Origin: Coriobacteriia bacterium
GTDB lineage: Bacteria; Actinomycetota; Coriobacteriia; Coriobacteriales; Eggerthellaceae
Direction: 5' to 3'
NCBI GenBank assembly: GCA_030536315.1
Contig: JAUNQF010000008.1
Span: 1-46,303, forward strand
DNA length: 46,303 nt
The notes beneath the pieces are model-generated. The model made no database searches. It was given only the letters and a program-made list of their open reading frames with translations, and was not told the DNA's origin. This document shows positions 1 to 43,612 of this stretch, piece by piece. Within the stretch, counting starts at the first letter, position 1. Every line of letters begins with the position of its first letter. Position numbers and translations under genes: made by a program.

Positions 1-1549
1 ACTTCGGACACTTGCACTTGCTAAAACTTTTATGCTCGGCGAGGGTCTCGCCTTCAGCCAAGTTAATGTCCTCCGGCAAAGTAACAGGCAAATCAGCCTC
101 TGGAACAGGCACAATGCCACACTTCTCGCAATGAATAATCGGAATCGGGTTGCCCCAATAACGCTGGCGGCTAATCAGCCAATCACGCAGGCGGTATTCA
201 GTCTTGCGATGCCCCGTGCCGTCCGCTTCAAGCTTATCAATAACGGCCTGCTCACCCTTACTATGCTTACCACCGACCATTCCAGTGAATTCGCCAGACT
301 GGACAAGCACGCCTTCGGCCTCCATAGCGGCATCCCAATCGACCGAAGTCACCTTGCGGCCCTTCTCATCTTTCAAATCGGCGAAGAGGGGGTCATCCTC
401 CTTCAAAATTATCGGGATAATTGACAAGTCGTATTTGCGAGCGAATTCAAAGTCGCGCTGATCACCACACGGAACCGCCATAACGGCGCCGGTTCCATAA
501 TCGGCCACAACATAATCAGCAACTCAAACAGGCACTTTCTCGCCATTGACAGGGTTAACAACAAAACGCCCGGTAAAGGCACCATGCTTTTCCTTATCTC
601 CTTGAGCACGCTCAAGAGCACTAACCTTCGAAGCATCTTCGATAACTTTCAAAACGGCCGCCTCTTGTTCGGTCCCAGCAACCAGCTCTTTCAAGCCCAC
701 ATATTCCGGAGCCAAAACAAAAAAGCTGCAACCAAAAAGCGTATCCGCGCGAGTGGTGAAAACTTCCAGCACATCGCCAGCGGCAAAATCATCTTTGTTA
801 AACCCATCATCGGCCGGCGAATTTCCAGCCGCATCGCACATCGTAAAATTGACAGCAGCACCTTCGGACTTTCCAATCCAATTAGCTTGCTGCATCCGAA
901 CGCGCTCCGGCCAACCGCCAAGCTTATCAAGGTCGGCCAGCAACTGATCAGAATACTTCGTAATTTTGTAATACCATTGAGTTAGATCGCGCTTCTCAAC
1001 TTCGCTACCGCAACGCCAGCATTTACCCTCAGTGACCTGCTCATTTGCAAGTACGGTCCCGCACTTCGGACACCAATTAACCGGCGAATTCTTGCGCTCA
1101 ACCAAGCCAGCCTCGTACATCTTAAGAAAAATCCACTGGCCCCATTTGTAATATTCCGGGTCACACGCAACAACCTTGCGGCTCCAATCGTATGAAAAAC
1201 CCATGCGCTTAAAACTGGCCAACTGCTTTTCGATGTTGGCATAAGTCCACTTCGCAGGGTGACTTTTATTCTTGATCGCGGCATTTTCGGCAGGCAGACC
1301 AAAAGCGTCCCAACCCATCGGGTGAAGCACATCAAAACCCTGCATTTTGGCATAACGAGCAATCGCATCGCCAATCGCATAATTGCGAACATGCCCCATG
1401 TGGATGTCGCCGCTCGGATACGGAAACATCTCAAGCACGTACTTTTTCTTCGCCGAAGCACCAGCTCCATCTGCAACTTTATGCGCGCCAGTCTCTTCTC
1501 AAACCTTTTGCCAGCGCGGCTCAATTTCTGCAGGATTATACTTCTTCAT
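1..1549 (-). CDS. leuS: Leucine-tRNA ligase, N-terminal part (runs off the window)
   Basis: Class I aminoacyl-tRNA synthetase charging tRNA-Leu in the cytoplasm. The start ATG (1547-1549) follows a good ribosome site (AAGGAGAGGG). The product opens MKKYNPAEIEPRWQKVW and carries the class I HIGH-type motif in FPYPSGDIHMGHVRNYAIGD. A zinc-type CPKCG...CWRCG pair and the editing-domain stretch VADYGTGAVMAVP follow. Two TGA codons (complement of 1499-1501 and 524-526) fall where LeuRS has Trp (QKVW-EETG and VPVW-VADY), so the gene is intact only with UGA read as Trp. The frame stays open to base 1, giving about 516 residues of a protein usually over 800 long; KMSKS and the anticodon domain lie outside. 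Identification is very secure. Confidence 0.97.
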
Positions 1550-2138: not shown

Positions 2139-2163
2139 AAAAAAGGGGGCCAAATGGCCCCCT
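2139..2163 (-). terminator. Rho-independent terminator of the giant surface-protein gene
   Basis: A perfect 7-bp stem GGGGGCC/GGCCCCC (145-151 with 156-162 after 2000), plus one flanking A-T pair, has loop AAAT. It is followed on the minus strand by six T (complement of 2139-2144). It sits 5 nt after the giant gene's TAA. A weaker T-run on the other side could serve plus-strand transcripts. Confidence 0.9.
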
Positions 2164-2168
2164 AAATT

Positions 2169-5100
2169 TTAGCGAATATGCAATCCTTGAACTTTCTTCG
2201 GTCTACGCAAGAACAAGAATGCGCCAATTAGTGTTAATGCCATAAGCGCAAATCCAGCAATCGGAGTGCTATCGCCAGTCTGTCCAGGAACATATTCCGG
2301 AACATCTGGCTCCGGCTGCGGCGGAACAGGCGCTTCCGCAATCTTCAAAGTAACATTCTTAACAATATTGTAATTAGTAGCTCGCGTTCCACCTACAGAC
2401 TCAAAAGTTACCTCAACAACTTCAGGATCTTCTTCCTCATCTGGATCATAAACATAAGTACCAATCTCAGCACTATTTGTTACATACTTATATTCAAATG
2501 CTTCAGTTCCAATGCCAGTTTCCTCAGTTCCACTAACTTCAAGAACTTCACCATCAAATGGCTTCTCTGAATCAATATTCAAAGTAAAGTTTGCTTTCTC
2601 AATATTTCAAGGAATATTAGCGATTGTGTCATCTGTATAATTGCCCATACCTTTAATTGTTGCTGAGTAACCACTTTCATCTCAATTTGTTTCAGAACCA
2701 CTAGTAATTTCAAAATCCTTACCTAATACCAATGTTGCTTGAGGAGTCAAACCAGTATCTTTAACAGTCAATACAGGGAATTGTTCTTGGCCATTATATG
2801 TTGGGTTCGCAGGAGTTACTAAAATCTTCGAAGGATCGAAGGTGCGCTTCGTAATTTCAACTTGACCAGTAAATGTTAGTAATTTGTAATTTCGAGTAGT
2901 AACACCCTGGTCCGTATCAGAAAGCTTTACAAATGCAATATTGTGGCTGTCGTCATTTGATAATTGCATTGTGTAAACTCCAACATCACCACATTTGGTT
3001 GTGTCTTTGTAAGTAACAATTCTGGCCTTTAAGACATCAGGCGATATCAATCCATGAGCCGCCGTAATATCAATAACATCCTCATAAGGTTTTCCATCAA
3101 ATTCATGAGTCTTTGTACCATATTCAACATTAATAGGGGCAGGATCTATATTCCATGTAACTGTAAAGCTACTACCAGCATAATTATTCAAACCAGTAAT
3201 AACAGCCTTGTATTTCTGTTCATATTCAGGTTTAACATTTCTGCGTGTAGCATCAGGATAAGATACCGAATAATCCGTTCCTACAGTAAGTGCAGATCCT
3301 TTATCATTAATTACCAAAGTTTGCAATTCTCTATTATCATTACCATCATATACTGGGTTAGTCTTTTCCCAAGTTATATCTGGATTCTCCGAAGGATCAA
3401 TTGACCTAGGATTAATGGTAAGCTTACCAGCATAAGTCATATTGTAATTAAGAGCTACACCTTCATCTGCCGAAGTCTTTACAAGATGCTTTCCAGTTGC
3501 CTCAGCACCATATACATAATCTCCAATAGCGCCACTTTTTGAGTCATTATCATAAGTTGTAAACTCTACATTAAATGTATCACCTTCAATAATGCCAGTT
3601 GCGGTCTTGTTATTTAATACAAAGCTCTTAGCAAACGGAGTATTGTCATCATAATTTACAGAACCTGCTATGCTTACAAACGAAGCATTCTTCTTTGTAA
3701 TAGCAAGCTTGCCACCACTTATTTCAGGAATATTATAGTTGCTTAACAAAGTGCTTGCATTTCCTGCAGCCCATTCATAAGTCAAGTTGTCATCAGTATC
3801 GGTATATTCGCCAACATTAATTGCAGGACCGCCATTTTCTTTTGCCGTAGCTGTAACCAAAAGTTTCTCACCAGCAACAAGGCCATAAGCAGAATCAACA
3901 GGCTTTGTTACAAAATATCCATTTTGATTTCTGTCATATGTCTTTGATTCATTAAATGTAGGTGCTATAATATCTTTTTTGTTAATGTTCCAAGTTTGCG
4001 CAGGTGTTTCACCAGTGTAGTTTCCGCCAACCTTTGCCTTAACAACAAAGCTATATTCACCTACATTCTTGCCATAATCACCAATAACTTCATATTCAGA
4101 TGGATCAACTTCGTTTGTATATGTATCAAGTACTTTAAAGCCTGCAACTTGGTCAGGTCGTTGATCTAAACCGTTATAAGTAAAATTATTAGTATAAGTA
4201 ACAGTGAAACTACTTAAATCAATAGAGCCTATAGTAACCTCCCCTGTAAAGTGATAAGTATAGTTTGATTCTTTTGTGGTACCTCAATTAATTGTAAAGT
4301 CAAGTGTAGACCTGTCAGTTCCATCGTATCTATAAACACCCACAGTAGATCCTTTAGTAGTTGCAGTTAACGAAACTGTCTCGCCGGTAACTAAATTATG
4401 GTCTGGTCCAGTTAACGTTGTATTTGCTGTCGCAGCACTTCCAGTATAAGGTGACGATCCTGATAAGCTATACGGCTCTATAGTACGCTTCAATACTCTT
4501 CATTCTTTATTAACTGTTCCAGAATAATTTCCATGACCAGTTATAGTTATATTGTATGTTCCAGCATCGATAGTTGTGGTCTCAACCTTATCCCAAGTGT
4601 AATCTGTAGGATTAGTTAGGGTGTTGTTTCCATCTTTAACAACAACATTCAAGCTATCGTGATTTGTACCATCGTAAGTTTCGTCATCTACAGTAATAGT
4701 AAAGTCAGCAGAACTTGGATCAATTGGCTTAGGATCAATAGTCAATGTAACATTCATATTAATATTGTTAGTATTGTAATTTACTAACAAAGTTCCTTCA
4801 CCTTCAGCTCAAGAACCTACTTGAGATGCATGGCTCTCTGATAATTTGTAAGTACCTACGTCAGAATCATCAGTCTCCCAAACACCAATAAGTTTTTCAT
4901 TAAAGATTCCTGTAGAAACTGCCACTTGTCCAGTGTTTAACACTTCGCCATCGTAAGTCTTAGATTTTTCTACGTTTCCGCTAAAGCCAATTTGATTAAT
5001 ATTCCATTCCTTTGGATCAGCAGAAAGATTGTAGTTTGGACCCTTGCCAGTAACAGTCAATACATAATTAGTTGATGAATGGTCTTTTTTATTTATATCA

Positions 5101-8100
5101 CCAGATAATTCGTAATCAACACCTTCTACTAGAACTCTTCCCTTATCAGTAACACTAAATCCTGATAATGTTTGTGTTTGGCCATTATAATCTGGGTTTG
5201 TTCCATTAACAACAATATCTGAATGGTTAAGCGGTTTTACGTGAATAGATAATGAAATTGTAAGGTCAAATACGTAATTACTTAATAAAGAATCAGTTTC
5301 ATGTCCTGATGTAGGAACAATTTCACATGTAGCATAATTTCCTGTAGGATCAGTTGCAGGATATTTGTATTCTCCCGCATCTACACCCTCAGAATCACCA
5401 TGCATTGTTGCACTATTAACATCAAAAGATTCGCCAGCGATAATATCATGGCTTTCACCTAAAGTAAAGGTTTTTGTATATTGAGAACCAGTGTAATAAT
5501 CACCACTCTCCATTAAATCAGCTTTAATTTCTTTAGGTTGAATCATCCAGAAATTATTTGTGATTTCACCATAATATGCACCCTTACCAACAATCTTAAA
5601 GGAGAAAACATCTGAAGAAACATTAGTTTCTGAAATATTTCCTGAAGTTGCAACTACATCATAATCTGTACCCTGTTGTAATGGCGTAGAACCTGCAGAT
5701 TCCTTTACAGAAAAATCATGTTTGCCATCCAAAGGACCTTGAGCGTCTCCATTATATGTATAATCAGAATGATAAGTAACAATAAAGTCGCTCAAGTCTT
5801 TAGAATCTTGCTTCAATACAGTCAGCTTTAACGGAAGTCCAGAATTAAATGTTACGGTAACGTTATCATTATCAATTGGTGTGAACTTAGCTACGTCAAT
5901 TGTTTGCGTAAACTCATGGTCGATATCATGTGGGCTCAATTCTGGATCTTCGGAGTTTTTAGAAATCATAAATTCAAACTGCGAAGGTCTGTTAACAAGC
6001 GACTTAACAATACCTGTCATATTAGGATAATTTGTACATGTTAAATTGTAACCGTTAACAGAATATGTTGGTCTAACTCCGTCGTAAGGGATTGCGATTT
6101 GCTTACCATCTACAGTAACTTGCAAATTGGCTTTGTCGATATACCACTTTACATTAGCCTTTTGGCCACTATAGTTGTTAATACCCTCAATAGTTGCAAT
6201 ATATTCACCAACATTGGTTCCTTTAATGTTGTATGCAACAAAGTCTTCACCTTGTACTAACTTGTTACCGCTATCATAAATATCAAGTTCGGCTTCAATT
6301 TCATAACCTGAATAAATATAATGAACAGGATAATCTTCAATGGTAGGATCATTAATATCTTTTGGAGTAATTACAAGTTGTAAGTCATTATTAATGATGA
6401 AGTTTGCAGTGATATTAGAATCATTGTAATCAAAATCAGCGGAAGTAAGCCCTTTCTTGTATGTACCAACATCTTTTCTTGTAAGAGTTATTGTTTCTCC
6501 ACTATTCTTATACAAAATCTTAGACTTTAGAATCAATTCTTTTGTTGCATCAGGCAAGGATGTTGTAAATTCATAATCTGAAATTGTAATATCAGAACCG
6601 CTATATTGTTTACTCTCCTGAGTACCGTTAATATAGATATCTGCCGCAAGTGGAATAATGGTCCATTCAAAAGTCATTGTTCCGGTATAGTTCTTGCTGT
6701 TTGTGGAATCAATTGTTAATGTGTATTTATCAATCTGTCCTTCAGCGTCATACTTAACGTTTGTTGCGGACTTTTCGCCATTTAATACATAATCTGTATT
6801 CTCTGTTAATTTTACAGCGGCATTATAAAGCTCAATTGTAGGTGCTTGCTCTTGACCGTTATAAACAATCTGTTCTGGATAACCAACAAAGTTAATATCA
6901 TTAATATCACATTTATTAATAGTAAGAACGCCATCGATTACCTGGAATTCTACAGCCACATTGTTAGGATCACCATAGGCAAAGTCACCTTGCTTTAGGT
7001 TCATTCTGTAAACGCCAACATCAGTTCCTTTAGCAACACAAGAACCCGAAGCTGGGGTAATCAAGCTTGTGTTTACAACCTTTTCTTCGGAAGCCTCAAC
7101 TGCTGTTCACCCAACAACAGATTGCTCAATTCCTTTATAAGTTACCGAAGCACTGTTGCCTGTAACTGTAACCGTACGCTGAGCTTTTAGAATCTTCCAA
7201 TCTACAGTTGCTTCTCCAGTGTAATTACCTTTACCAGTAACTTTAAGTACATAATTTTCTTGAGCAAATGTATTTGCATTTACTTCGCTGTTTCCAGTAA
7301 TGTCATATCCCTCTACTGGAACTGTAACATCGCCTTTAGTAACACTTAATACTTTAGGACCTTGAGCCTTTGCATTATAAACAAATTCAGTTTCGTCAAC
7401 CGTGACAACAAAGTCACTAATGTCAACTTTATTAATTGTCAAAACACCATCTGTTACAACAAAACTTACATCAACATAAGCTCTATTTGCGCCATTGTAA
7501 TATAGCTTAGAAGCATCTAAGTTCATTGCATATGTACCAGCATTTATACCAGACGCAGATGGCCAAGCCGGAGAGTACAAAACGGCACTCTTATCAATTA
7601 CGTCTGTCTCTTCAGCAGAATGCTGCTCAACCACTTCGTGAGTAGTAATGCTATGAGAACTTCCGTCATAAGTTACAGTATCACTTTGTCCAATAACTTG
7701 AACAACGCGCGAAGCCTTAACAATCTCATATGACAAATATACAGAATCTTTATAGTTGCCCGTACCTTTAAGTTCTAGTGAGTAATGTCCAGGAATAACA
7801 CTACTACCTTCAACTGGAGTAACATATTCATAGCTCTCTCCAGTTAAAGGAGAACCAAAGTCTTTAAGAGTAAATGAACTTTGAGCAGGATATTGGTCCT
7901 TATTATTATATGTATAAGTTTGTTGATCATAAGTGAGTTCAGCCTTAGTCAAGGAACGCTTTTCTATAACAAGTTTTGACTGAGTAACATTAACAGTAGC
8001 TTCGCCATCATATGTTGCAGTTACAGTACTTGTTGATTCCCCAACATCTTGTCCACTTAAATTAAATGTACCGGTAATATGAAGCTTGTCCATATCAAAA

Positions 8101-11100
8101 TCAGTCATGTTTGTTGTAACAATATACGCACTATCTTCATCAGCAGCAATGGTTTGGGCTTGGCCATTATATTCAACAGTCTTAGTAATACCAGTAACAT
8201 TAATAGCCGAAGCCTCAGGTCCTGTAATTGTAAGTTTAGACTCATTAATAATTTCATAATTATCTGTAGGATCATCCGCGTTAGCATTATCTAATGGTTT
8301 ACCATCAATCTTTAAGTTAGCTAACTTCAACATATTTCCAGTATATTCGCCTGCTCCAGAAGCAACAGTAGAAACAGTTCCACTTAATACCTGACCAGCT
8401 ACTGTTCCATCTACATCAGCAGTAGAAATCCTGTGCTCAAGTACCGAAGCATCTTCGCTCTTAACATCAACCGCATGAATTACTAGCTCTTTCTTTGTAA
8501 TGTGAAGCTTATTAACCGCGATAGCGCCATTTGCTTCATCATTTGATCCAACAAATGTTGCATTAATATTTGGATTATCATAAACAAAGAATGACGAATC
8601 CAAGTTAAGTGTGTAATCACCAACATCTGTTCTGGTCAAAATTGCTTGCTTACCTTGAACAAGCAAAATGTCACTTGCTACAAACAAGTTGGTAGCTCCA
8701 CCTGATGCTGTAGCTGAATAACCGCTAACACTTTGAGAATAACCATTGTATTCAACAGTCTTTTCATTAGCAATAATTTGTATGGTTAAATCCGCTTTGG
8801 TAATGTGCCAAGGAATATTAATAATAGAACCCTTATAGTTTCCAATACCAGTAGCCTTGGCTAAATATTCTCCAACATTTATGCCGCTTAGCTGTCCTTC
8901 AAGAACAAAATCAGTTCCAAAAACAAGCTCTTTCGTTCCGTTTTTAACAGAAATGCTTGTTGTTTGTTCTGCAGCATTATATACAGTGTCTGTGGCAGTT
9001 GCTGTGAACTTCGAAATATCAGCTCTATCAATTTGCATATATGCATCGGTATTAAGAACAAATTGAGCATTGATATTATCATCGTTATATTCAAACTGAC
9101 TTACATCTAAACCAACAGTGTATTTACCAAGCTCTGTTCCCTTAGCTTGTGGAGCATAACCTTCTGCTAACGAAATATTTGCTGGGTTAAATAAACCAGT
9201 TGCCGAAGTTTCAATTGCGCTGCAAAGCGTATCTACACTTACAGTTTCTGGGAATACTTGCTCTTGGCCATTATATTCCTTAACGGTATTCTTGCCGTTT
9301 ACAGCTATAGTCATGTTGGCTTTAGTAATTTGCCATGAAGCTTCTTTAATTGATCCAGCATATTTACCTAGACCTTGAACAGTAATAGGATAGGTACCAG
9401 CATCTGTAGCTGAAAGTTTAGTTCCGCCACCTAATTCATTAAAGCGATAATCTTTATTGAAGGTTAAAACAACACCATTTACACTTACCACAACATCAGT
9501 TGTCTTAAGCTTACCATCGTAAACAAAATCACGTGTCGTAATAACAGCAGCATCTAATGTATTCCTTGTAATTGTTAATGAACCATCAACATATTCAATC
9601 GCCTCAACATCAACATTTGAATCGCTGTAAACGAAATCAGTACTATCAACCCCCATATAATAAGGATTGTACTGAGCATCTACAGCAGTTACCTTGCATT
9701 CTTTATTGCAAGTTAATTTAGATTTATCAAATAAACCTGTTACTAAATCTGATCCTTCAACAGGCACTTCCCAAGGAGTATAACCTTCAGCCGTATGAGG
9801 AAGGCCATCATAAGCGAAGGTTTGCTTGTCACCTTCAACATGAATCTTAATAGTAGCTTTGTTGATTATGATACTTGCAGTTTCAAAATCAATCAAATAA
9901 TTATCTGTGACAGGTTTTTGAGCAGCATCTAATATTGTAACTTTAGAAACAGCAACATTATCCTGTTTACCAACATTGGTCAGACCGTTGTTGACTCATT
10001 CATTAATCGTAATAGAGTGATTATCCGCAAGGTTATCAAACTCTACTTCATCATTAGAAAGCTTTTGCTCAACACCTGAATAAGTAAATTCTTTAGAAGC
10101 TGGGGTAACAGTTAAATGTCTCTTTTCAATTGACAAAACAATCTTTGGAATAATATTATAGTTATTAGCGCCTTCGCCAGTTACATTGCAATAAGCCCTA
10201 TTTGTTGGGTCACCATATTTATAAATACCAACTTTTGCATCACTTGTGGATAAGGTAACTTCGATGCCATCTCTATCTTGAGCACCCTCAATTTCGCTCT
10301 CGTCAACAACATAATTAAAGATTTTGCCAGAGAATTCCATGCTGCTGTTAACCGTTATGGTTAAATCTGCCTTAGCAATTTCTCATGCATAGGAGCTAGA
10401 AGTTCCAGTGTAATTACCTTTACCTGTAACAGTTAAAACATATTTTCCGGCATCTATAGCAGAGCCATTTACTACATCATAATCTTTTGGTGTTAAATAG
10501 GTATCGTCGTCAATAACAGTAACACCTGGACCTTGTGAATTACCATTATATGTAAATTGTGTTGGTGATACAGTAATCGAAGTAGTGGTAATATCCTTCG
10601 GGTTAATTTGCAAATAGCCATCAACATATTCTACTTCGTAAGTTCCAGGTTCTAAACCTGAAACATTAAAATCACTAGCACTTAGACCCATATAATATGT
10701 ACCAGCATTTGTCTGCTTAATTTCTGTGCTCTTTGTTGTTGTAATTTCATACTCAGCAGCAGGATCAGATGCTGAATGTGTAAATCCTGAAACTGTCTTT
10801 TGTGTTCCGTCATAAGTATAAGAACCAGTTTTTCCGTAAACATAAATGATTGTCTTTTCACTTGATTTAATTGTTAATTCAACATCATAATGTAAATCAT
10901 AATTCATGGAAGCATCTGCCGCTTCAATTGTGCGCCAAGTAAGTGTTGGGGTAACACCAGTTGAAACTTCGTCATTTAACCTATATACACCAGCACTAGC
11001 CTGTTTAGTAATCAATTGTAGAGAAGTTAAATCACCCTCATAAATTCCTGTTTTTACAATTTGATTTTCATCTGGCGAGAAAGGATTACTATCAAATTTA

Positions 11101-14100
11101 TGAACAGCTTTACTGCTAATTAAAGCATAAGCTTTTTCTACTGTGATACCTCCATTTTCTACATTAAATGTACAAGTAACATTAGTATCGTTATATGAGA
11201 AGTCACCAGCATTTAATGTAAATTCATTAAATCCGGCATTTGTTTGCTTAACAGGTGAAATAACCTGACTATAACTTACCTTGCCTTGATTAAATAACAA
11301 ACTGTCTGAATATACAGAATACCCACTAACAGAATGTTCCTGTTTGTCATAAGTAACTTTAACATTGTCACAAACTACGGTAGCTGTAATGGCAGCTTTA
11401 AGCATTGACCAATCAATAGTAGTCTCACCGGAGCATTTACCTAAACCTTTGATAGTTGCAGTAATACTATCTGCGGCATCAATTGCAGAATAGCCTGAAA
11501 CAACTTCGTAGTCTTCGCCTTCGGTGTATACATATCCCGAAGCATCCTTAACAACAATCTTGGTATATTGCTCTCTTCCGTTGTAAGTTCTGTTTTCTGC
11601 AGTAACAGTGCACTCCTTAAGATCAATACCAGTAATTTGTAGATATCCATCATCCACATCATAAGTAAAGTCAATATTGTCTGGATCACTGATACTGAAA
11701 TTCATGTGATCTAATTTCATTGGATATGTTCCAACTTCAGTACCGTAAGCAGCTACACTGTCAGAAGTTGGATAAACCGTGAAGTTATAAGTTGTTACAG
11801 AAGGTGTATAGGTAGCCTCCCACCCAGAAACACTTTGTTGAACTCCATTATATGAATATGATGCATGCTTGCCTTTAATATCAGCATGTAACTTAGCCTT
11901 TGCAATACTCCAAGAAAAGTCTCTAGATTCTGTGAAGTTACGCGACCCACTTACAGTTAATGTGTAATCACCTGCATTGGTAGCCTTGGAACCATATAAA
12001 TAGTAATCTGTATTTTCTGCAAGTGTTATGCCATTATATTTCACAACAACATTAGGTCCTTGAACAGAACTTGTATATATAAACTCAGTTGGGCTTACTG
12101 TAATGTTTGCATTCTTAACAGAAATTGGTTTAATCTCTAAGCAACCATCAGCAATAACATTAAACTTTACATTTACACTTTCATCGCCATAATAGAAATC
12201 GCCAACTTGCAACCCCATATAGTATTTATTAGCATTAGTTCCAACAACATTAGCCTTGCTTGGGTTATTAAGCTTAACCAAGCCTTCGCTATAAACTTCC
12301 AATGGAGTTTCATCATGCAAAACAGAAGTATAGCCTGCAACATATTTTTCAGTTCCATCGTAGTCAAATGAAGCAGAATTTCCAGTTATGTCTACTTCAA
12401 TAAAGGCTTTATTAATAACCCACGGCAATGTAACAGTTCCAGTGTAGTTTCCTTCGGTGTTTGAAGGAGTAACACTTAAAGCATAATTTCCAGCAGCAGT
12501 TGCAAACGAAGTCCCACTTACAACAAATGAATCATTGTCCAAAGTCTTTACGCCATCAACAATCTTTAAGGTTGGGCTTTGCGAAGATCCATTGTAAGTA
12601 AACTCGTTAGGTGTAAGTGTGATTTGAAGTTCGCTTAAATCCTTCGGATTAATCTTTATGAAACCATTTGTAACATCAAATATAGGTGTAATGTTTTTAT
12701 CTACATAATGAAATACTGAAGAATCCAGTCTCATAGGATACTTTCCGGCGTAACTCGCAGTCACTGTATCCTTGCCTTCGTCAACTGTTAACTTGTTCAT
12801 GTCAATATACGGACGAAGCTTATTAACAGTGCAGTTATAACCCGAAACTGTTTGCTCTTCTCCGTTGTAAGTTCTTTCGTCACTATTTCCAACAATTGTA
12901 AACGTTACTTTAGCAGGGACAATCTTCCAATATACAGGTCTAATTTGGCCAGAATAATTTCCCTGCCCCTCGATAATTGCAGTGTAAGTATTAACTTCCA
13001 CACCAGAACCACCAGTAATCTTATAATCTCTGTCAGTTAAATAGGTACCTGTAGCTTCGTCGCCATTTCTAATAATGAATGTTGGTCCTTGGTTTTGACC
13101 ATTGTATTCAAGCTCTTCTGGCTCAGCCTTAATAAGCATACTGTCTTCAAGCTCTTTAGGTTGAATTTCTAAACGGCCGTCTTCAACCTTAATTTCATAA
13201 GGGTCAGTACCATAGTCATAATAGAAATCACTGGGCTTTAATCCCATCCAATATGTACCAGCATTTGTACCAGTAACTGTTAGCTTGTAAGCACATTCTG
13301 GTTTAACATGGAAATTTTCTGGCTTAAAGAAGTCTGGCTTAGATGAAGATACTTCATATCCGGATTCAGATTGTTCATAACCAGTGTAGTACTTCTTCAA
13401 ACTATCATTAGTTCTGTGGCCGGTTACTGTAATTATCTGAAGCTCATCAATTGTAAGAACAACATAGTATTCCAAAATATAATTGCTTTGGTCAACATCG
13501 CCTCAATCTATTACAGAAGTAAACTCTTTATTTAGTTCGTCGTATTTGCCCTTTTCTCCAGAAACAGTTTCAAGCTTAATTGAGTTTATTTCTTCACCTT
13601 CGGCTAATCCATCTACCTCATAAGATGGCGAAGTCTTATCAACATTTACCCAGTGAACAAATTTTTCATGTGTTGCTTCTTCTGGATCATAATATTTTGA
13701 ATCGTTAACATTAATTGTAAGAACTTTGGCTTGAATAACAACATAACCAGGTGCCAAATTCCAAATTACATTAATGTTAGGATCATCATAACTTCAGTTA
13801 GCGGTATCTCCAAAGTCAACCTCAGAACCGTCTTCCTTAATAATTTTCATAGTGTGTGTTCCTACCGAACTGCCTTGAGCAATGCACTTTTGAGGACTTG
13901 GAGAAATCTTCGATGCATCAAATTCTTCTTTTAGTGTGGCACTAGTTTTTGCATAATCAACACTAACTTTATATTCAGAAACAGTTTGAGTTTTACCTGT
14001 GTAATATAAAGGATTTTCTTCATCAGCACCCAATGTATTACCTGTAATATCAATATACATATCTGCTTTCTTTATAAGCAATATTGCTTTAGCAGAATGA

Positions 14101-17100
14101 ATAATATTGTAGTTTGCAGAAACATCTTTTGTAGCTTCTGTTTGTGCGTTAGCATTTGTAACAACAACCTTAGTAATGGTTACTTCTTGGCCAGGATCAT
14201 TTACTTCGGTTGCAGAATTGTTGGCCCAAGTAACAGGATTATTATCAGGGTCAAGAATATGACCTGGGCAAAGTTGATTCTTATCATATGTATATTCTGT
14301 TAGTTTATGCTCATCACCGTCGTAGGTAAACTCTGCACTCACAGGAGAAACAACTAAATCGCGCTTATTGATAGTAAGTTGAATATCATTTTGAGTAATT
14401 GCGAAGTTACTCAATAAAGTTCCCTCCGCAGGAATTGTTTCACAAATTAAATTTTTGCCATTTATTGTATAAGAACCCACATTGCTAGAGTTAGTTGTAA
14501 GTCTAATAGTAATGGTGTCTTTATCCGCACCGAAGGGTTGCTCAACAATTTCCTTAACGAAAACTTCACCACTGTAAGTTTCAACATACTCATCATGTGA
14601 AATAGTTAATGGACATTTTGCAATTGATCAAACAATATTAGTTACGGTGCCAGAATAATTACCTATACCTGTAATTGATGCAGAATACTTATCCGAAGCA
14701 TCTTTACCAGTGTTTCCAGTGATTGTATAATCTTCCGCTCTAAGTGTAAGCTCATCTGCATCGGCTGGTTTGTATTTAACAACAAAATCTTTTGTTTGAG
14801 TGCTACCGTTATAAATAAGATCTTCGACCGGAGTAACAGTCAATGTTCCATCTTTAGTAATGTCGGCTGGAGTGATATTTAAAATACCGCCTTCAAACTC
14901 TCATGTTACATGAACATTTGTATCGCCGTCCAGATAAGCAAAATTTTCCTGAACACTTTCTGGTAATGATTCCGAAGTTCCAATATCTGTTCTAGAAGCA
15001 GAAATCTCTGCTGAAGTTGGTTTAACCTTGCCTTCGGTTTGAAGACCTTGAGGGTTGGAAACAGCAATTAAGTCGTAACCATCGATACTTCTCTCAGTTC
15101 CATTATATTTATACGAAGCCGAATGCCCCACAACCTTTAACGAAAGACTTGCAGGTGTAATTTTCCAGCCATATTGTGCTGTCTTCGAAGTTGAGTAGTT
15201 TGAGCCTTCCTGGCCAGTAACTTTCAAAGTATAATCTTGAGCATCTTTTCCAGTATCGGAATTCTCAACTATAACGTAATCTCTATCTTTAACTAGAGTC
15301 TTTCCGTTTTCTCCAAAGCGTGTATCAACAACACTAACCCTTGTAGTTTGGATTTGCGCGTTATAAACTAAGTCGGTTGCAGTAACTTCGATATCAGAAC
15401 TATCAAGTTCGTAAGGATTGATAACAATTTGTGAATCTTTCCCGTAATTTATATTGTAATTGTTAAGATTCGTTCCTTCATTAGGAGTAATAGCTACCTG
15501 AATGCTTGTATCGCCTGAACCAGAATTATGATAATAAGTCTTGGCGTCGGCACCGAGCGTTGTGGCTGTAGCGGTTGCTAGGCCTTCGTCGCCAATCCAG
15601 CCAGCACCTTCATAATTAAAACAAGATTTAATATCATGGGTTTTTACTTGGCCATCATAATCATCACTAAATTCAAAAGCTTTCGCATTTATATTAACTT
15701 TCTTGATTTCAAAACGAACAGTATGTGTAGTGCTCTTGTCTGCTTCGATATTCCATCTATACCAAGGTTTTAGAGTAACGGTTGAATAATAAACGCCGGC
15801 ATCTGTAGCCTTAAAATTATCATCTATGGTCATACATCCGGAATCATAATTAACACCTTGCTGAGCAGTACCATCATAGAATAAGTCATCTACAGCGGTT
15901 GGATAATCAACACCAGTGTAATCAACTTTAATATTCGAAGTAGATTTGCCATAAATTCCTTCTTTAACGGTACTACTCTTTTGAATAGTTCCATTTGCTT
16001 GAACATTATTTATGACAAATCCAGCTTCAACATTTTCTCCTAATACTTTATATGTGCCTAAGTCTATAGGCTCAGATACCTCGCCAGCAAGCAAAATACC
16101 ATGATCTGGCTCTCCATCTTTATAAATAATTGCTTTATTTCCAGTTAGGCCTAACAAATCAGACGTAATAACTGTTTCGTAAACATTTACATTAGAATTG
16201 TTTCTTATTACTGCGGAATACTTAATTTCATCATTAATGTGAACAGGTATCGTAGCTGGATCTTGAGGTACAGCCGTGATTTCTACAACAATATCTTTTC
16301 TAATGTCTTCTGTAGGTATATAAATTTCTTCTTCATTCGAATTACACTCTCCACCTCAGTAGGGACTTTCTTCAGGAGTATTATTGTAATAAGCTGTAGA
16401 AGTAAATCATAGACTTAACTTACCAAAAGCAATATCTTCAGATGCGACAGTATATTCAAATTTCTTAGTTATAGTTTCACTAATATCTAAGAGACCCTTG
16501 TCCATTTTTAAGTCATCTCTCTCACCCCAAGCAGAATAATATGAAAAACCAAGAAGATCTCCTGGTGAGTATCATTGGGTTGCTCTAACAGGAACGGAGC
16601 TATTGTTTGTAATTTCTACAGTAAAAAGAATTTTTTCACCCAAGGAAACTTTATGCCCCTCAGGAACATCCGAAGTAACGTGTAGATTTAAGTCCATGAC
16701 AGGTATTGGCCATAAATTTACACCATAATGAAATACGCCAGCACTAGTAAAAGAATATATGTGACCAGTGGAAATCTTTTGGTCATCAGGGTCTAGCATA
16801 TTTAAATACTGATATTCATTAGTATTTGTAAGAACATAATGAACATTGATTGATGATTTCCAGCTATCTTCTGTAAAACTTAAATAACTATTTGCAGGAT
16901 TCTCTGTGTCTACATAAGCCCTTTCTTGAGAATTTTTTGTGCTAATAAGTTTTAAATTAAGACTTTCAATTTTTTCTCCAGCATCATTTTCTCAATGTCC
17001 ATTTTCATCAGACATGAAATTAATATTAGCTTCTTGAATATTAAGAACAATATATCCTGTTATTATTTTAAAGTTTGTGCCATGAGGCGGAGTGTCGTAT

Positions 17101-20100
17101 TGAACGCCCAAATATTCAGGATTACTTCCTTCTACTGGATCCACATTAACGTCATCAAGCTTAGTAACATAAATATTAATTTTCACACCATAAATCTTTT
17201 CTTCTGGAGATGGTTCAATATCTGTAAGCTCAACAATTCTGTCATCACTTATAGTACTATTTGCAGTAAAAGAATTTCCTGAGATGGTTCCTACACCATC
17301 GTATTGAAATTCTGCAACTGGAGAATCTGCATATGTAATTACTGGATTAGGAGCTATACATGCTGGAGGATCAGCTTCTGGGTCAGTTAAAGCATTTAAC
17401 AAGCTAACTGATTCGCCAGGGCTTACTTTAAAGCTGGTAGGCTCAACACTTTGCTGTAATGGCAAGATAGAAACAAAACCAACAACCTGCCCTATAGAAT
17501 ATTTATGTAATAAATCTCCTTCGAGGCTAAAATCACTAGCTTTGTAAGAAACAATATTATTAACACCAACAAATTTAGAATCGCAGTAAACAATAGCGCC
17601 TTCTTCCATCTTTACTGTTACAGAATTAACATCTTCGCCAACAAGTCCATCAATAATATGCGCTTCTTGCGCAACGGCTTCTGTTGTTCCATCATAATGT
17701 TTTTCAATAGTAGCTATTTCTACAGTAACTTCACTACCCTTAATACAATATTCATTACATTCAATGGTGTATGTTTTTGATTTATCGACAACTATTTCAC
17801 CATTAACGACTTGAACGTCATAAAATGAAATACGCGCTTTGTATCAACCTGGATCAACTGGAACAAAGTCTATTGGTTCTCATGACTCTTTCTTGTTAGA
17901 CTGAGATTGTCTATGAGAACCAGTAGTGCTTTTCATATACTGAATATCTGTAGCTGGAACAGCAAATGTATGATTTATAAACTCATAATAGTTTACGATC
18001 TCGACAGGGTGTTCTTCACCATCATAAATAATTGGGTCTTTATACCATTCGCCTTGGCGTCCCACGCTTTGAATTGTGGCTGGAAGTTTATCATTGCCAT
18101 ACTTACACTTTGAGAAAGTGTATGTGCCGTCTGCATAATTTCGTTGCACAAAACCCACATCGCACTTTAAAGAAATTGTATCATCAGGACCATCATATTG
18201 TGGAAGCTCTGGATATAACGAATATGTAAAGTTATGCTCATGCGGAACAATCCACAGTTCAAATGAGCCTAGGGCATTATCTACCTTCGTATTAATTAAA
18301 AGTTCATACGATAACCTTCCTACAACTTCATCCAAAACAAAACATTTAACGCTTGGATCAGTTAAATCTTTACTACCTGGAGTCAAATTTAGCATTGAAG
18401 CGCCATAACCTTCAGAAATATCAATATCAGTATTCTTTGCATAGTTAACACCAATTAAACTACGAGTATCTAATGGTTTATTAGGATCGATATGAACATA
18501 TCCTTTTGTGTTGTCTTGTAGTTGTAGAGCAAGGTTGTCTTCATACACTTCGTTATATTCACGAGACATATTATTTGTAACATTCATTTTGCCTGAAAGA
18601 TATAAATCACAGGAGTTAAAGTTTGTACTTCCGTAGCCAGTATAAACGTTAATTCCGCCACCGTAGTTATAGCAAACACTTTTGTCAGTAATGGTATCAT
18701 GCTTTAAACCACTCATATTGTTTTGAACAGTGCAGCTATCCATATAACAAGTAGTGCCATGGAACAAGAATATAGCACCAGCACGATAATTAGATGTGTT
18801 GTCATAAAAATTAGAGCTATTAATATTTACAACAGGAGATTTATTCTTAGAAAAAGTTGCAAGTGCACCGCCACCTCATGGACTGTAATAACCCGATGTT
18901 GATGTACTTTCTCCAATTTGCTTATTATTCTTGAATTCACAATAATTAATATTAGCGGTACCGGCATAACATTCTGTATTCATCATACCTATAAGAACGG
19001 CACCACCACCACCCATTGATACATTACCGGTAAAATAAACTGCGGATAAATTACATTTTGGGTTTTTTGTGAGAGAGCCGCTTCGAATTGCTCCACCACC
19101 GCTGCCAGCCGGATAAGTCCACTTATGAGTCATGGAAGAGTCTCCACGATACTTATTTTCATTACCAACAAAATTGACTGCATAAGCATCTAATGTGCCC
19201 TCGTTATAAATAGCAGAATAATTAGCGCCAGTTATCACACCGCCGTCCACATAATAATCAGTTGTATTTCCGCTTGTATCTAAAACTCATTTACCATCAG
19301 AATTTGGATTAAAGTAATGCCTGCAGTACTCTTCGCCAAACTTACAATCAAAAATTTCTAGACTGCCTTTATTTTGAATAAATAAATGAGTTGGAACAGA
19401 TTCATTATCTACTTCATTTCCTTCCCAATATAAGGCATAGCCATTAAGATCAAGATGCAAGGATTCTGAAGAGGTGATAGTGGCAGTAGCATTGATTCCT
19501 ATATCACTATCCAAATAATAATATCCATTTGTTGGAAGTTTATGAGTAGCTGAACTGAAAGTTAGTTTAGTGTATGTTTGACCTTCATGTACATGTTGAC
19601 GTTCTCGCTCTGTTGTAAGTTGATATGTTTGTTCAGAAAATACATTCTTTTTTGTAAATGATGCCGTATATTCAGTCAGACCAGGTTCTGCAGAAGTAGC
19701 TCTTTTTATTACGTTTTCAGTGACTGAATGATCATCCATTGTGCATAACTCAGTAACATGAACAGATATCCCTGCAGCAAGAACCTCACACATTCCAAAA
19801 CATGTAACATTTTCTGGGTCACTAAGATCTCAGATATAAGAAGGAATTTCTGCTATAAGGGTTAAGTTTTCAGTTATAGTAAATTCACGTTCATAAGAAA
19901 CGGTAGGGGCTGCTTCGGTATGAAACCAAATAACACCTTGCATTGTTTCTAATTTAACCTTGTCCCCAGAAACAAAATTATATTTACCATCAGCGTCAGG
20001 TAAAACCTCAACATAAAATAGAAGAATATCTTGAAATAAGGGGATGCCCCTAAATACTTTAACATTGTTTTGAATAGTTTCTGTTTCAGGATGGGAATTA

Positions 20101-21704
20101 AGAGTAAGTGCAACTTTTTGCCCAGGATCAGCTTCAGCTTCAATTGTTAAAGTAAGTTGCACGATATCACGAACATTATATTTAACATACATTTCTGAGT
20201 TTTTATATTTTTTCCCAGGATCTTGGATGTTTCTAACATTAAGTTTAATAATGCCATCTGAAGAAAAACAAGGAATGACACACTCAATTTGCTTTCCGCC
20301 AGCCTGGAACGTAATTTCATCTGTCACATAAAAATCTTGCCAGAGTACAGTAACACCCAAATTACCCGTATCGGCACCTGCTCCTCTGTTTACAACTACA
20401 TTAATCTTATGACACAAGTCGTAATAAGAAATATCTCCTATATCATATGTAGACCCGTCATCTGGAATTATTGGCAAATTGTGTTCGCTTTGTCCGAAAA
20501 TTATTGTATTACCAGTTTTTTCAGAATATATTTGTAAGCCTTTAAGCTGGCCACTTGAAACGCTTTCTGATTCAAATTCAAAGTTTCCTTTATGGTCGTC
20601 TCCTGCAGAAACGCTAATATCTTTTTGAGTAAATATTTGACCGCTAGAATCTTGATAAGCAATGTTAATAATGTCGTCTGAGCAAATATTGTTTAAATTT
20701 AGCTTAAATTTGCCTGTGTATCCTTCGGTTTTAATGTTGTTAATTTTAATTCCACCATATTTGTAATAATCGCTTTTTCCTGAATTGTATGGGCGTGAAT
20801 AAATATAATATTCAGCATCTTTTTCAAAGAAACCGTCTCCATTGGTAAATGTAACCGTTTTGTAATTTGTAGAATTTAACGTAAACTCTTGAATATAATT
20901 TTTCGAATAAGTGTCGCCTGTTGCTGCTTTTTTAACAATACCAACAACAGCATACCTTTGACTGTTACTTGTGTATACACTTGCAACGTTTAATGAAATG
21001 CTTCTTAGATTTTGTTGAGGAATTATTTTTATATAGTTATTAAAAATTGTTCCGTGTGTATTTTTAGAGCCGCCATCAGATTTAAGCATGTGTTGCTTAT
21101 TCATTACGTATCCATTAGAATCGATGGTAGTGCTTCCTCCATCAAGAGTTGAATAATTAGCACTATAAGGACCAACAAAAGTTATACGCGCAGATTTGTT
21201 TGTAGCAAAATAATCTTCGGTATTGAGTGTTGAGCTAGAGCTAGTATTTAAAGTTGTCTTTGAACCAAAATAAGCACTAAAATCCCATTCATAAGGTCCA
21301 CATTGCTCATCTTTTGCATCGTTTAAAGAATGAATGTTTTCATCATTTGTTTCTTCGTCAGAAGAATCGGATTCGAGGACTGGGCCTGCAACTTCGGGTT
21401 GGTCGGGCGTTTCGGGGTCGACTTCGGAGTCGTCGGATTCTTCGCCACCGCCACCTGGATCTGGCGATTCTGGATCAGGATCCGTTGCGCCTTCTTCGGT
21501 GGTTTGAGCTGCTTCGGTGTCATTAGCCCAGGCAGTAATGGTTTTCGCGGCATCGGCCGGCCATAGCAAAAAGACCAATAAAAAAGCAACGATTGCCGAA
21601 ACAACACGTTGCCAGATTGGCATTTTGCGAAGCGTTGCAGACGCCCCCCCCCATGAGGTTTTTCCGAGTTTCTTTCCTAAATTCAAATTCTTCAACGATT
21701 TCAT
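2169..21704 (-). CDS. Giant cell-surface adhesin-like protein with about 50 MBG/YDG-type repeats (6,511 residues, 21 UGA-Trp codons)
   Basis: One frame of 6,512 codons, ATG at 21702-21704 to TAA at 2169-2171. Under the standard code it breaks into 18 long pieces, but all share one frame and every break is TGA. Layout: charged N-region and signal peptide (hydrophobic near residues 32-52); acidic Asp/Glu/Pro linker to about 130; beta-rich region; a Gly-Gly-Ala-Ile-rich segment (about 700-1070) resembling a right-handed beta-helix; then about 5,000 residues of MBG/YDG-like repeats of 75-80 residues with YNG/YDG, GNYTG and W-x-I-x-KA signatures. It ends with VPGQTGDST, a hydrophobic helix and RRPKK, a degenerate sortase-type anchor. 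Trp in the repeat signature is UGG in some copies and UGA in others. Probably secreted and wall-attached; ligand unknown. Confidence 0.9.
21644..21652 (-). repeat. Run of nine G in the coding strand near the 5' end of the giant gene
   Basis: Nine consecutive C on the plus strand, so G9 in the coding strand, encode Trp-Gly-Gly-Ala at about residues 18-21, before the signal-peptide core. With nine G the frame joins ATG to the rest of the protein. Gain or loss of one G would send translation into a short dead-end frame. Such tracts are typical slipped-strand phase-variation switches. Confidence 0.8.
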
Positions 21705-21710: not shown

Positions 21711-21717
21711 TCCTCCT
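21711..21717 (-). promoter_or_regulatory. Ribosome binding site of the giant gene
   Basis: Coding-strand AGGAGGA lies 6 nt before the ATG at 21704. It fixes the start upstream of the poly-G tract and is one of the strongest Shine-Dalgarno sites in the window. Confidence 0.85.
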
Positions 21718-21832: not shown

Positions 21833-23683
21833 TTAAAGTTGGTGGGCTTTTTTGCGTTCGGTTGCTGTAAGGAGTTTTTTACGAAGGCGGATGTGCTTCG
21901 GAGTTACTTCGACAAGTTCTGTGTCGTCGATGTATTCGAGGGCCTCTTCCAGGGTAAATGTGACAGGCGGAGTCAGCTGAATTGCCTTGTCGCTGCCAGA
22001 TGCACGCTGATTTCCAAGATGCTTGGTCTTGGCCACGTTAACCACAATGTCTTGTTCCTTCGCGCTTTCGCCAACAATCATGCCTTCGTAACAAGCATCG
22101 CCCGGACTAATGAAAAGATGCCCGCGCTCTTGCAAAGTGTCGAGCGCAAATGCGACGGCTTTCTCGGTACTCATTGACACAAGTGCGCCATTTTTGCGGC
22201 CGGTGTATTCAAAATTGACAGGACCGTATTCTGCGAAGTGATGGAAAAGTGTGGCGCTACCATGGGAAACGTTGAGAAGTTTGGTGGCCAGGCCCATGGT
22301 GCCTCGGCTCGGGATCTTAAACACGAGGTGGGTCTGATCGGCCTTGGCGTTCATCTCGGTCATCTCGCCACCGCAATTGCCGAAAACCTCGATGACCTTT
22401 CCACTGTATTCGTTATCCACGTCGACCACAGCTTCTTCAATCGGTTCAAGCGTGTGGCCGGCTTCGTCAGTCTTGACCAAAACGCGCGGACGCCCGACCT
22501 GAAATTCGTAACCTTCGCGACGCATGGTCTCCATCAAAACACTCAAGTGCAAAACGCCGCGGCCGGCAACTTCCATCGCAGTGCTGTCCGCGACTTCGGT
22601 GATGCGCATACTAATGTTGCTTTCTTTCTCACGAAGCAGACGCTCCTTGAGTTGACGCCCGCCAACGATCTCGCCGTCCTGACCAACAAGAGGGCTGGTC
22701 GAGGGTTCAAAAATTACAGCCATGGTTGGCTCTTCAACTTCGATTGGCGCAAAAAGGTTCGCGGCACGCGCGGCAGCTTCGTCGATCGCAGCAGCATCAT
22801 CGCCCGACACGTCCACAATCACATCTCCAATGTCGGCATCATCCACACCAACAACGGCAACAATGTCACCCGCGGCGGCCTCGGTCACTTCGTTCTTGCC
22901 AAGATTCTCAAAAACGAACAACTGTTTGATTTGCGTCTTGTATTTTTTACCATGATTGTTCACGGCGAGGACCTGCTGGCCCTTTTTCAGCGTTCCGAAG
23001 CCGAGGCGCCCAACTCCAATTCTGCCTTGATAGCTGGAGTGATCAACCGTTGATATTTGAAGAGCGCAGGGCTCTTCGGCCTCAACTTCGGGGGCCGGAA
23101 CTTCGTTGATTATCATATCCAAAAGCGGGAACATGTCGGTGTTTGTGTCGGTCAGTTCCGCGCGAGCGTAACCTTGCGCCGCACTTGCGTAAATGATTGG
23201 GAAGTCCAGCTGCGCGTCGGTCGCGTTAAGGTCGACCATCAAATCGAAGACCTCGTCGACAACCGCATCCGGGCGCGCGCCATCGCGGTCAATCTTGTTA
23301 ACGACCAAAATTATGCGCATACCCTGGGACAACGCGTGCTTGAGCACAAATCGAGTCTGAGGCATAGGACCTTCGAAGGCATCAACGATGAGCAGCGCCG
23401 CATCGGCCATGTTAAGCACGCGCTCGACTTCGCCACCAAAATCAGCGTGGCCAGGCGTGTCAATGATGTTGATTTTTTTGTTTTTGTAATTTATCGCGAC
23501 ATTTTTCGAAAGAATTGTGATGCCGCGCTCGCGCTCCTGATCATTGCTGTCAAGGACGCGTTCGTCAACTTTCTGATTCTGGCGAAACACATCGGTCGCC
23601 TTTAGCAAGCAATCAACCAGAGTTGTTTTCCCATGGTCAACGTGCGCAATTATCGCCACATTTCTAATATCATCTCGTCTCAT
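21833..23683 (-). CDS. typA: Translational GTPase TypA/BipA
   Basis: A 616-residue ribosome-binding GTPase acting in ribosome assembly and stress adaptation. The G domain is complete: AHVDHGKTT (G1), [12 protein letters not shown] (G3) and NKID (G4). EF-G-like domains and the BipA-specific C-terminal domain follow ([11 protein letters not shown], then [11 protein letters not shown]). The length is normal for the family. The ATG (23681-23683) is preceded by an exact TATAAT only 9 nt away and has no Shine-Dalgarno site, suggesting a leaderless transcript. No TGA codons occur. It is followed by the giant gene with no clear terminator. GC content is visibly higher than in the giant gene or the rpmH region. 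Confidence 0.98.
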
Positions 23684-33818: not shown

Positions 33819-34634
33819 ATGGCTGAAACAGAAACTAAACATAAAAAGATAACTTATAACTCGGTCCAGAGAGAAGACTTTAGCGTGGTCCGAACTCCTG
33901 CTCGCGTTGCAGTATATGATGACCTAAAGGCTCCCCCTCGTGTTATTGATGTATCGCCTGACATAACAAACAACTTTATTGAAAAACTCGCTTCAACAAT
34001 TTATGACGAAGCAAACAAAAAAGGGAGCAAGATTCCATACACTGTAATTAGAGAAATTTCTGAAAACTTTATCCACGCCCGCTTCACTGAGATTGTTGTT
34101 TCAATTCTGGATAACGGAAACACAATTCGCTTCACAGATCAAGGGCCCGGATTTTCAGACACAAACAACGCACAACTTCCGGGCTTCACTTCGGCGACCG
34201 AAGCCATGAAGCAATACATCCGAGGCGTTGGATCAGGCCTTCCTACAGTAAAAGATTATCTTAACTATTCTGATGGCAGCTTAAAGATTGAAAACAACCT
34301 CGAAAATGGCGCCGTCGTTACAATTAGTATGCTCGAGAACCTGAACAATTCTTCGGCGTTTTCTGAATTTGATAAAGCTCAAAGCAAAGCAAAATACACC
34401 GAAAAAATGACGAAGCTATCCCCAACACTTTCTCCAAGGGAACGCGATGTGCTCAAGCTTTTCTTAACCGAAGGCGATTTAGGCGTGTCGCAAATTAAGG
34501 ACTTACTAAACATTCCTCTTTCAAGCACTCACAAAATCTTGACCAATTTAGAACAAAGCGGATTGGTCCAAAGAGTTGGCAACAAACGTCGAATTTTGTC
34601 CGACCAAGGCTTCGCCGTTGCAAATATTCTCTAA
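33819..34634 (+). CDS. Histidine-kinase-type ATPase with C-terminal helix-turn-helix, next to oriC
   Basis: A 271-residue protein with no membrane segment or signal peptide. Residues about 50-175 form a GHKL-type ATPase: N-box in IREISENFIHARF, G1 in DQGPGF and G2 in GVGSGLPTVKDYL. There is no dimerisation/phospho-acceptor histidine domain and no sensor domain. Residues about 205-270 form a winged-helix or LuxR-like HTH (LSPRERDVLKLFL, then IKDLLNIPLSSTHKILTNLE). An ATP-binding DNA-binding protein between oriC and dnaA may tune initiation or dnaA expression. I believe related genes occur beside dnaA in Coriobacteriia, but cannot confirm it here. Ribosome-site evidence for ATG 33819 is weak. 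Confidence 0.8.
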   Translation: MAETETKHKKITYNSVQREDFSVVRTPARVAVYDDLKAPPRVIDVSPDITNNFIEKLASTIYDEANKKGSKIPYTVIREISENFIHARFTEIVVSILDNGNTIRFTDQGPGFSDTNNAQLPGFTSATEAMKQYIRGVGSGLPTVKDYLNYSDGSLKIENNLENGAVVTISMLENLNNSSAFSEFDKAQSKAKYTEKMTKLSPTLSPRERDVLKLFLTEGDLGVSQIKDLLNIPLSSTHKILTNLEQSGLVQRVGNKRRILSDQGFAVANIL

Positions 34635-34663
34635 ATTTTTAGAAAATCTCGCATCAATTCAAA

Positions 34664-34699
34664 ATGAAAGTGATATAGTAAGCCTCCCTTTCACGATTG
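34664..34699 (+). promoter_or_regulatory. Promoter region of dnaA
   Basis: A TATAGT -10 box (34674-34679) is followed 6 nt later by CCCTTTCA (34686-34693), as at the neighbouring ATPase gene. TGAAAG just upstream (34665-34670) forms an inverted pair with CTTTCA around the -10. A TGTGGAAAA (complement TTTTCCACA), a DnaA-box variant, begins at about 34699 before the start codon and could mediate autoregulation. Confidence 0.6.
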
Positions 34700-34708
34700 T
34701 GGAAAACT

Positions 34709-36181: not shown

Positions 36182-36394
36182 TTTTTTAGGGTGGATTTGT
36201 TGTTATTTTTTCCCTTATTTTCTTGTTAATTTTTTGTTAATAAAATTTAAAAAATTTTAATGGGATTTAAAATAACATTTTATTGTTAATTTTTTTGATA
36301 GTGTATTTATTTTATTTATAAGGAGCTTTATTAGAAATTAACAATTTTACTAACTTTATTAATATTATTTTTTTGAATTTAAGAAAGGTTAATT
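36182..36394. other. Very AT-rich gap between dnaA and the M24 peptidase
   Basis: A 213-bp stretch made almost wholly of A and T, with repeated TTGTTAAT-type words. No perfect DnaA box, tRNA or convincing hairpin terminator was seen. It could carry an AT-rich unwinding region or a promoter that cannot be picked out from the background. Confidence 0.5.
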
Positions 36395-37480: not shown

Positions 37481-37485
37481 AACAG

Positions 37486-37513: not shown

Positions 37514-37572
37514 ACTCGTCCACTCGCGAAAAAACGGGAATTAGATATAACCTAATGTTTTAGGAGGATATA

Positions 37573-37707: not shown

Positions 37708-37710
37708 AAA

Positions 37711-42556: not shown

Positions 42557-43612
42557 CTAATTTAGATTATTTAGAAGCTGTCCACAAGCGGCATCTATAT
42601 CAGAACCGCGAGAAGCTCGTAGTGTGGCTTCGATACCTTTATTATTTAGATCTTTAATTCATTTATTAACTACAGCATTAGAGGAAGCTTTAAACTTCGA
42701 ACCGTTAACATCGTTGAATTTAATTAAGTTAATATGGCAAAGCATACCTTCGCAGAAATTAATTAAAGCATTTAGATCTTCTTGAGTGTCGTTTACGTTG
42801 TTGATTAAAAGATATTCAAACGTTGGGCGTCTATTTGTTTTTTCAATATAGTTTTTAATGCTGTCCTTAAGCTTGTTTAATGTGTAATTCTTAACGCCCG
42901 GCATTAATTGATTTCGTTTTTCTTGAATTGCGCAATGTAGAGATATTGCAAGTCCGTATTGTTTATCTACATTAGAAAACTTATCAATACCTGGAATAAT
43001 ACCGCACGTTGAAACAGTGATCTTTCGCGCTCCAATTCCAATTATTTTTGGATTGTTAATAATATCTAAAGCGTCTGTTAAGTTTTCGAAGTTAAGGAAA
43101 GGCTCACCTTGGCCCATGACAACAACATTAGAAACTTTCATTCCCAAATTATTTTGAATAAATAAAACTTGTTGAACAATCTCTCCGCAACTAAGGTTTC
43201 GAACAAATCCTTGTTGTCCTGTCGCACAAAATTCACAAGCCATAGGACAACCCGCTTGGCTTGAAATACAAACAGTTAATTTGTTAGAGCTTTCTTTTAA
43301 GGAAGGAATAGCAACACACTCAACAAAGACTGGTTTTTCGTTTTTGACGTGAGATTGCATTTCTAAAACGTATTTTTTTGTGCCATCAGACGATAATTGT
43401 GAAGAATGGAGCTGGGGCTTCGTAATGACAAAACTATCAGTAAGTTCAGAAATTAAATCTTTAGGTAAATTTGTCATTAACGAAAAATCATCGATCTCTC
43501 GCCCATAAACTCATTCTAAAATTTGCTCAAGCCTATAAGACGGCTGCTTGTTCTTCTCAAGAAAAGCACGCAAATCTTCAAACCGCAAATTATTAAACGA
43601 AACTTTATTCAT
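42557..43612 (-). CDS. rlmN: Dual-specificity 23S rRNA/tRNA methyltransferase RlmN
   Basis: Radical-SAM methyltransferase for A2503 of 23S rRNA and A37 of some tRNAs. 351 residues, ATG 43610-43612 to TAG 42557-42559. The radical-SAM cysteine motif is CPMACEFCATG; other marks are VVMGQGEPF, ITVSTCGI and the C-terminal LRASRGSDIDAACGQL. Two TGA codons (complement of 43511-43513 and 42659-42661) are Trp: the first in EQILEWVYGR near the N-terminus, the second before the C-terminal block. Under the standard code both ends would be lost. The start lies 8 nt after TATAAT with no ribosome site. It is head-on to replication and divergent from the Ddl-LCP gene. Confidence 0.96.

Follow-up and report, generated by a model that had tools for sequence, protein, structure and literature searches.

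A 19.5-kb stretch of minus strand that the standard code breaks into pieces is a single gene when UGA is read as tryptophan, and codon usage indicates that the whole draft genome carrying it is recoded in the same way. The host is, by its sequence placement, an uncultured bacterium of the family Eggerthellaceae (Coriobacteriia, Actinomycetota). We consider it highly probable that this is a recoded member of the Eggerthellaceae which has lost RF2 and reads UGA as Trp, and in which positions 2169-21704 of the window (the whole stretch of 46,303 nucleotides analysed here) form one gene for a stalk-type surface protein. The recoded host is the larger result. The giant protein taken alone is a further member of the already known repeat-built surface proteins.

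A single open reading frame of 6,511 codons

Translated with code 4, the minus strand from 21704 to 2169 is a single ORF with an ATG start, a TAA stop and a product of 6,511 aa, here called the giant surface protein. Its tryptophan codons comprise 43 TGG and 21 TGA, and there are no internal TAA or TAG codons. Given the base composition of the gene, a run of 6,511 codons free of TAA and TAG would arise with a probability of about 10^-158, which excludes chance; the other five frames of 2169-21704 each contain between 171 and 556 such codons. An AGGAGG ribosome-binding site (21712..21717, minus strand) is found upstream, 7 nt before the ATG, and a strong terminator-like hairpin followed by a T-run (2144..2163, minus strand) lies directly 3' of the stop codon. 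The initial annotation had described a single gene of 19.5 kb for about 6,500 residues that is broken up under the standard code, and both statements were borne out, as table 11 yielded 15 main ORFs of at least 80 aa, all on the same strand and in the same frame. The 18 long minus-strand segments it had counted do share one frame, but the number itself depends on the length cut-off. The observation that this is one gene with UGA as Trp is confirmed.

UGA is read as tryptophan

The leuS gene (2..1549, minus strand) is encoded on this contig, two genes downstream of the giant gene, and is cut by the contig end. When it was aligned with relatives, both of its TGA codons fell at columns where the relatives have Trp (29/29 and 29/30). 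The rlmN gene (42557..43612, minus strand) also has two TGA codons, one of which, codon 34, is at a conserved Trp and aligns with the Trp of E. coli RlmN and of another solved RlmN. On another contig, TGA163 of an ABC-F protein occupies the Trp position of the SGGW signature. Within the giant gene, Trp is found in the W-x-I-x-K-A motif column of 18 of the 19 type-A repeats, encoded by TGG in 14 units and by TGA in 4. In-frame TGA is present in dnaA, yidC, prfA and many further genes. All informative columns indicate that UGA encodes Trp, in agreement with the residue assigned by the initial annotation.

To define the extent of recoding, about 152 kb from eight contigs of the bin (31 contigs; genome 75% complete) were sampled. 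Coding density over this sample was 0.83 with code 4 compared to 0.65 with table 11. The 109 ORFs contained 208 TGA and 261 TGG codons in frame as Trp, and in-frame TGA was found in every one of the eight contigs. Gene calls made with code 4 were coherent with TAA and TAG ends alone, these ends being taken from the calls and not compared with aligned C-termini. RF1 is present, its gene prfA itself containing one TGA, and the genome has one clear trpS. RF2 gave no match above cut-off in this draft genome, in which a gap may hide the gene, while it was found in 56 of the 61 genomes searched. The absence of RF2 is weak alone because the genome is 75% complete, yet it agrees with the codon evidence. 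From these sequence data we conclude that the whole draft genome is recoded; RF2 would be gone and RF1 would end translation at UAA and UAG.

The host and its standard-code sister

The upstream neighbour of the giant gene, bipA/typA (21833..23683, minus strand), has its best matches in Coriobacteriia and Eggerthellaceae and places the contig in Coriobacteriia. The host belongs to one family with 36 of the searched genomes and is alone in its genus among these. In a leuS tree it is sister to Coriobacteriia bacterium S32M_St_metabat_43 (hereafter G014) inside Eggerthellaceae with 99/100 support, and its leuS is 77% identical to that of a close relative with RF2. Since this TGA-containing leuS is encoded on the contig of the window itself, bin mixing cannot account for the result.

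RF2 is present in G014, which reads as a standard-code genome. TGA ended 13 of 145 ORFs in G014, and 37 of 177 in relatives that are further removed. The ORFs were called mechanically in genomes of differing GC, and this is weak evidence that UGA may have been rare before reassignment. Directly downstream of bipA (11872-21088 of the G014 stretch analysed), G014 also encodes large surface proteins, of at least 1,976 aa, whose repeats are of other kinds and whose genes are free of TGA. Near selA on contig C6 of G014 (15597-15693 of the stretch analysed) is a tRNA-Sec-like gene with a CUA anticodon, which ARAGORN annotates as Pyl; this suggests that UAG may specify selenocysteine in G014.

Elsewhere in the window, dnaA, rnpA, yidC, jag, rsmG, parA and parB (33819-42489) are grouped as around a replication origin, and GC drops to 26% at 36-38 kb.

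The 36% GC of the giant gene beside 50% in leuS and bipA raised the possibility of horizontal transfer. This was rejected, as other stretches of the genome have a GC of 0.36-0.42 and the TGA share of Trp codons in the giant gene (33%) is much like that elsewhere (44%). A second genome of the family (G013, 97% complete) also had no match to RF2 (prfB) and was considered as a recoded candidate, but its leuS and prfA are without in-frame TGA and the missing RF2 is probably an assembly gap.

Two readings would keep the standard code for the host. Splitting of 2169-21704 into many pieces by table 11 is what a decaying pseudogene, or a series of several separate genes, would give; however, 21 TGA codons occur over 6,511 codons without one TAA, TAG or frameshift, in-frame TGA is shared by leuS, rlmN, dnaA, yidC, prfA and many other genes, and RF2 was not found. 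We rejected the pseudogene, and the probability that either form of this reading is correct appears negligible. Alternatively, a Mollicute or a phage might have contributed recoded contigs as contaminants to this metagenome bin of 31 contigs. Against this, the TGA-bearing leuS on the contig of the window is placed in Eggerthellaceae beside G014 and all eight sampled contigs use in-frame TGA, so that contamination is just as hard to credit. A recoded Eggerthellaceae host is the reading that we retain.

A candidate UGA decoder

Among 37 tRNA matches in the genome there is one with a UCA anticodon, on contig C4, whose genes carry in-frame TGA. It scored 58.3 bits against the ordinary tRNA model, to which it aligns with 23 nt inserted at the variable region, and it folds with acceptor, D, anticodon and T stems of 7, 4, 5 and 5 bp plus an extra arm. 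The UCA tRNA has A1-U72 and G73, as does the tRNA-Trp(CCA) of the genome, which is the only other member of the set with A at position 1. A long arm together with G73 is favoured by SerRS. The UCA tRNA has C2-G71 and is without G2-C71, G3-C70 and A9. The last three are among the bacterial Trp identity elements, and C2-G71 counteracts SerRS in E. coli tRNA-Leu (PMC9976931). No counterpart of the UCA tRNA was found in 60 relatives.

The long variable arm and G73 resemble those of tRNA-Ser and tRNA-Sec, and ARAGORN labelled the UCA tRNA SeC by its anticodon. These features would suit a sense UGA that stands for serine or selenocysteine, or for glycine as in code 25. Every informative column is Trp, however, and although the UCA tRNA is like a selenocysteine tRNA in anticodon, arm and G73, it differs in its ordinary 7-bp acceptor and 4-bp D stems, which are not of the Sec form, in A1-U72 and in its fit to the ordinary model. 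In addition, selA was not found in the host genome, where the missing quarter implied by 75% completeness could hide selA or a second UCA tRNA. We consider a residue other than Trp very improbable.

With Trp as the residue, UGA would be read by the UCA tRNA of contig C4 or, less likely, by tRNA-Trp(CCA), and from its sequence the likeliest assignment is that the long-arm tRNA carries Trp. It is possible, if the less favoured view, that the decoder is instead tRNA-Trp(CCA), or an ordinary tRNA-Trp(UCA) encoded in the unassembled part of this incomplete genome, and that the long-arm tRNA has another task. Recoded bacteria elsewhere use an ordinary tRNA-Trp(UCA) or a tRNA-Trp(CCA) with a 4-bp anticodon stem, according to the main text of a 2026 survey (PMC13092985), and the long-arm tRNA is without part of the Trp identity set. 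On the other hand, the tRNA-Trp(CCA) of the host has a full 5-bp anticodon stem, and the long-arm tRNA is the sole UCA tRNA of the 37 matches and is found in the recoded genome alone. If the long-arm UCA tRNA does carry Trp, its structure would be unusual for a decoder.

Architecture of the giant surface protein

All features of the protein are given with their minus-strand coordinates. The N-terminus (aa 1-59; 21528..21704) is signal-peptide-like by hydropathy, with a hydrophobic segment at aa 28-50, in agreement with the signal peptide named by the initial annotation. No family match was found for aa 60-1300 in Pfam, NCBIfam or the PDB, and the N-terminal part has no homologue in 60 relatives. 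Within it, a part rich in GGGA and N (aa 730-1130; 18315..19517) suggests, by its pattern, a possible beta-helix. The beta-helix-like part described earlier gained no support from Pfam, NCBIfam, the PDB or AlphaFold; modelled with no alignment, aa 669-1175 reached a pLDDT of 33, and this model was left out of fold searching.

A YDG domain at about aa 1325-1418 (17451..17726) was recognized by Pfam PF18657 above cut-off and by an internal profile. It is followed by a DUF7507/DUF11-like domain at aa 1823-1914 (15963..16238), for which PF24346 (36.3 bits) and TIGR01451 (26.1 bits) were both above cut-off. From aa 2003 to 6460 (2325..15698), internal repeat profiles resolved some 50 MBG/YDG-like beta-domains in tandem. 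Nineteen are type-A units, each some 75 aa long, and about 28 are type-B or YDG-like units with a length of roughly 90 aa; the B profile picked up four more. This agrees with the figure of about 50 MBG/YDG-type repeats given by the initial annotation. In Pfam searches of the giant protein YDG was above cut-off once and most repeat units were below threshold; the MBG match, with an E value of 3.4e-4, was the best among nine repeat pairs. An A-B repeat pair was modelled as beta-domains with a pLDDT of 88. Foldseek found no match to this model below E = 0.001, the best having E 5e-3, and the weak, non-significant fold matches included Sap S-layer, RbmA, intimin and lactobacillus adhesin domains. 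The repeat profile had no match in the PDB.

The C-terminal tail (aa 6462-6511; 2172..2321) consists of a proline spacer, the sequence EYVPGQTGDS, a hydrophobic helix and RRPKK, and resembles a sortase signal without LPxTG. The membrane anchor proposed earlier has its counterpart in an anchor-like C-terminal hydrophobic segment. That the giant protein is a secreted surface protein is supported by its sequence. The whole protein has no counterpart in the bipA loci of relatives.

Anchoring and possible role

LPxTG is absent from the tail, and Pfam and NCBIfam found neither an anchor family nor an S-layer anchoring domain in the giant protein. The genome does encode a sortase, with the motifs TYGHN and FSTCD. 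A second surface protein of the genome (2-2338 of the stretch analysed from contig C21; about 778 aa as read) ends in PEYVNGQTGDS and a hydrophobic tail resembling that of the giant protein. We infer that the giant protein is sortase-anchored via a lineage-specific signal, its hydrophobic, basic tail with the QTGD motif probably being processed by the sortase of the genome. The roughly 50 tandem beta-domains would form a long stalk, which most likely keeps the N-terminal module off the wall for binding other cells, mucus or matrix. By analogy with other surface proteins built of repeats, the giant protein may serve as an adhesin stalk.

A biofilm scaffold or an S-layer-like coat, as opposed to a partner-binding adhesin, is the other role to be considered. 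Besides adhesins, the repeat pair has Sap S-layer domains and RbmA among its best, though weak, fold matches, and the N-terminal part is without a homologue among the relatives. These fold matches are not significant, however, and the lack of an S-layer anchoring domain and the sortase-like tail also argue against such a role, which we consider unlikely. From the share of the window devoted to this gene, the initial annotation had read a strong attachment, be it to a host or to a partner cell. This was a guess, as a single gene of such size within 46 kb does not reveal how much the genome as a whole invests. The account that the initial annotation gave of the giant gene as a whole is partly supported.

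Comparison with known systems

The giant protein resembles the MBG/YDG/DUF11-repeat surface proteins (PF17883, PF18657, PF24346) in having beta-domains of 75-95 aa in tandem that carry YDG/YNG motifs, a signal-peptide-like N-terminus and a C-terminal membrane segment. It differs from them in that its repeats are diverged, single units alone reaching Pfam cut-offs, and in its N-terminal part, which has no relatives in that family. With sortase-anchored (LPXTG) proteins it shares a proline spacer, TGD, a hydrophobic helix, a basic tail and a sortase in the genome; unlike them it has EYVxGQTGDS in place of LPxTG, a feature common to one more protein of the genome.

Most bacterial UGA-to-Trp changes described so far are from symbionts that are tiny or AT-rich, from Mycoplasmatales and from Patescibacteriota. 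A screen of more than 250,000 genomes reported them in Mycoplasmatales, Entomoplasmatales and a few insect symbionts, and did not name the host group among these cases (PMC8629427). The 2026 survey, based on 42,109 genomes, extends the list in its main text by a single family of Patescibacteriota and mentions cases in Mycoplasmatales, Pseudomonadota and Verrucomicrobiota; the word stems Coriobact, Eggerthell and Actinomycet are absent from that main text (PMC13092985). No relevant paper emerged from literature searches that combined Coriobacteriia or Eggerthellaceae with UGA recoding. The type of change is therefore known already, the phylum looks new and the form of the tRNA is probably new. 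We lean towards a UGA-to-Trp change that arose independently within Actinomycetota, in a gut-type family of moderate GC, with a tRNA-Trp(UCA) that has a long class-II-like arm and beside a sister that keeps RF2 and is poor in UGA stops. Gene sets made with table 11 would be wrong for the host genome and would leave the giant surface protein invisible. Together with its close RF2-bearing relative, the recoded host would provide a before-and-after pair for testing stop-codon capture.

The host is like the code-4 bacteria described to date (Mycoplasmatales/Entomoplasmatales, Hodgkinia, Nasuia, Zinderia, Stammera, Pinguicoccus and the Patescibacteriota family JAKLIH01) in having UGA at Trp columns, gene calls coherent with UAA or UAG ends, a UCA tRNA and no RF2 found. 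It is unlike them in belonging to the Actinomycetota (Eggerthellaceae), in a GC content of about 38-39% in the stretches read and in the long variable arm of its UCA tRNA.
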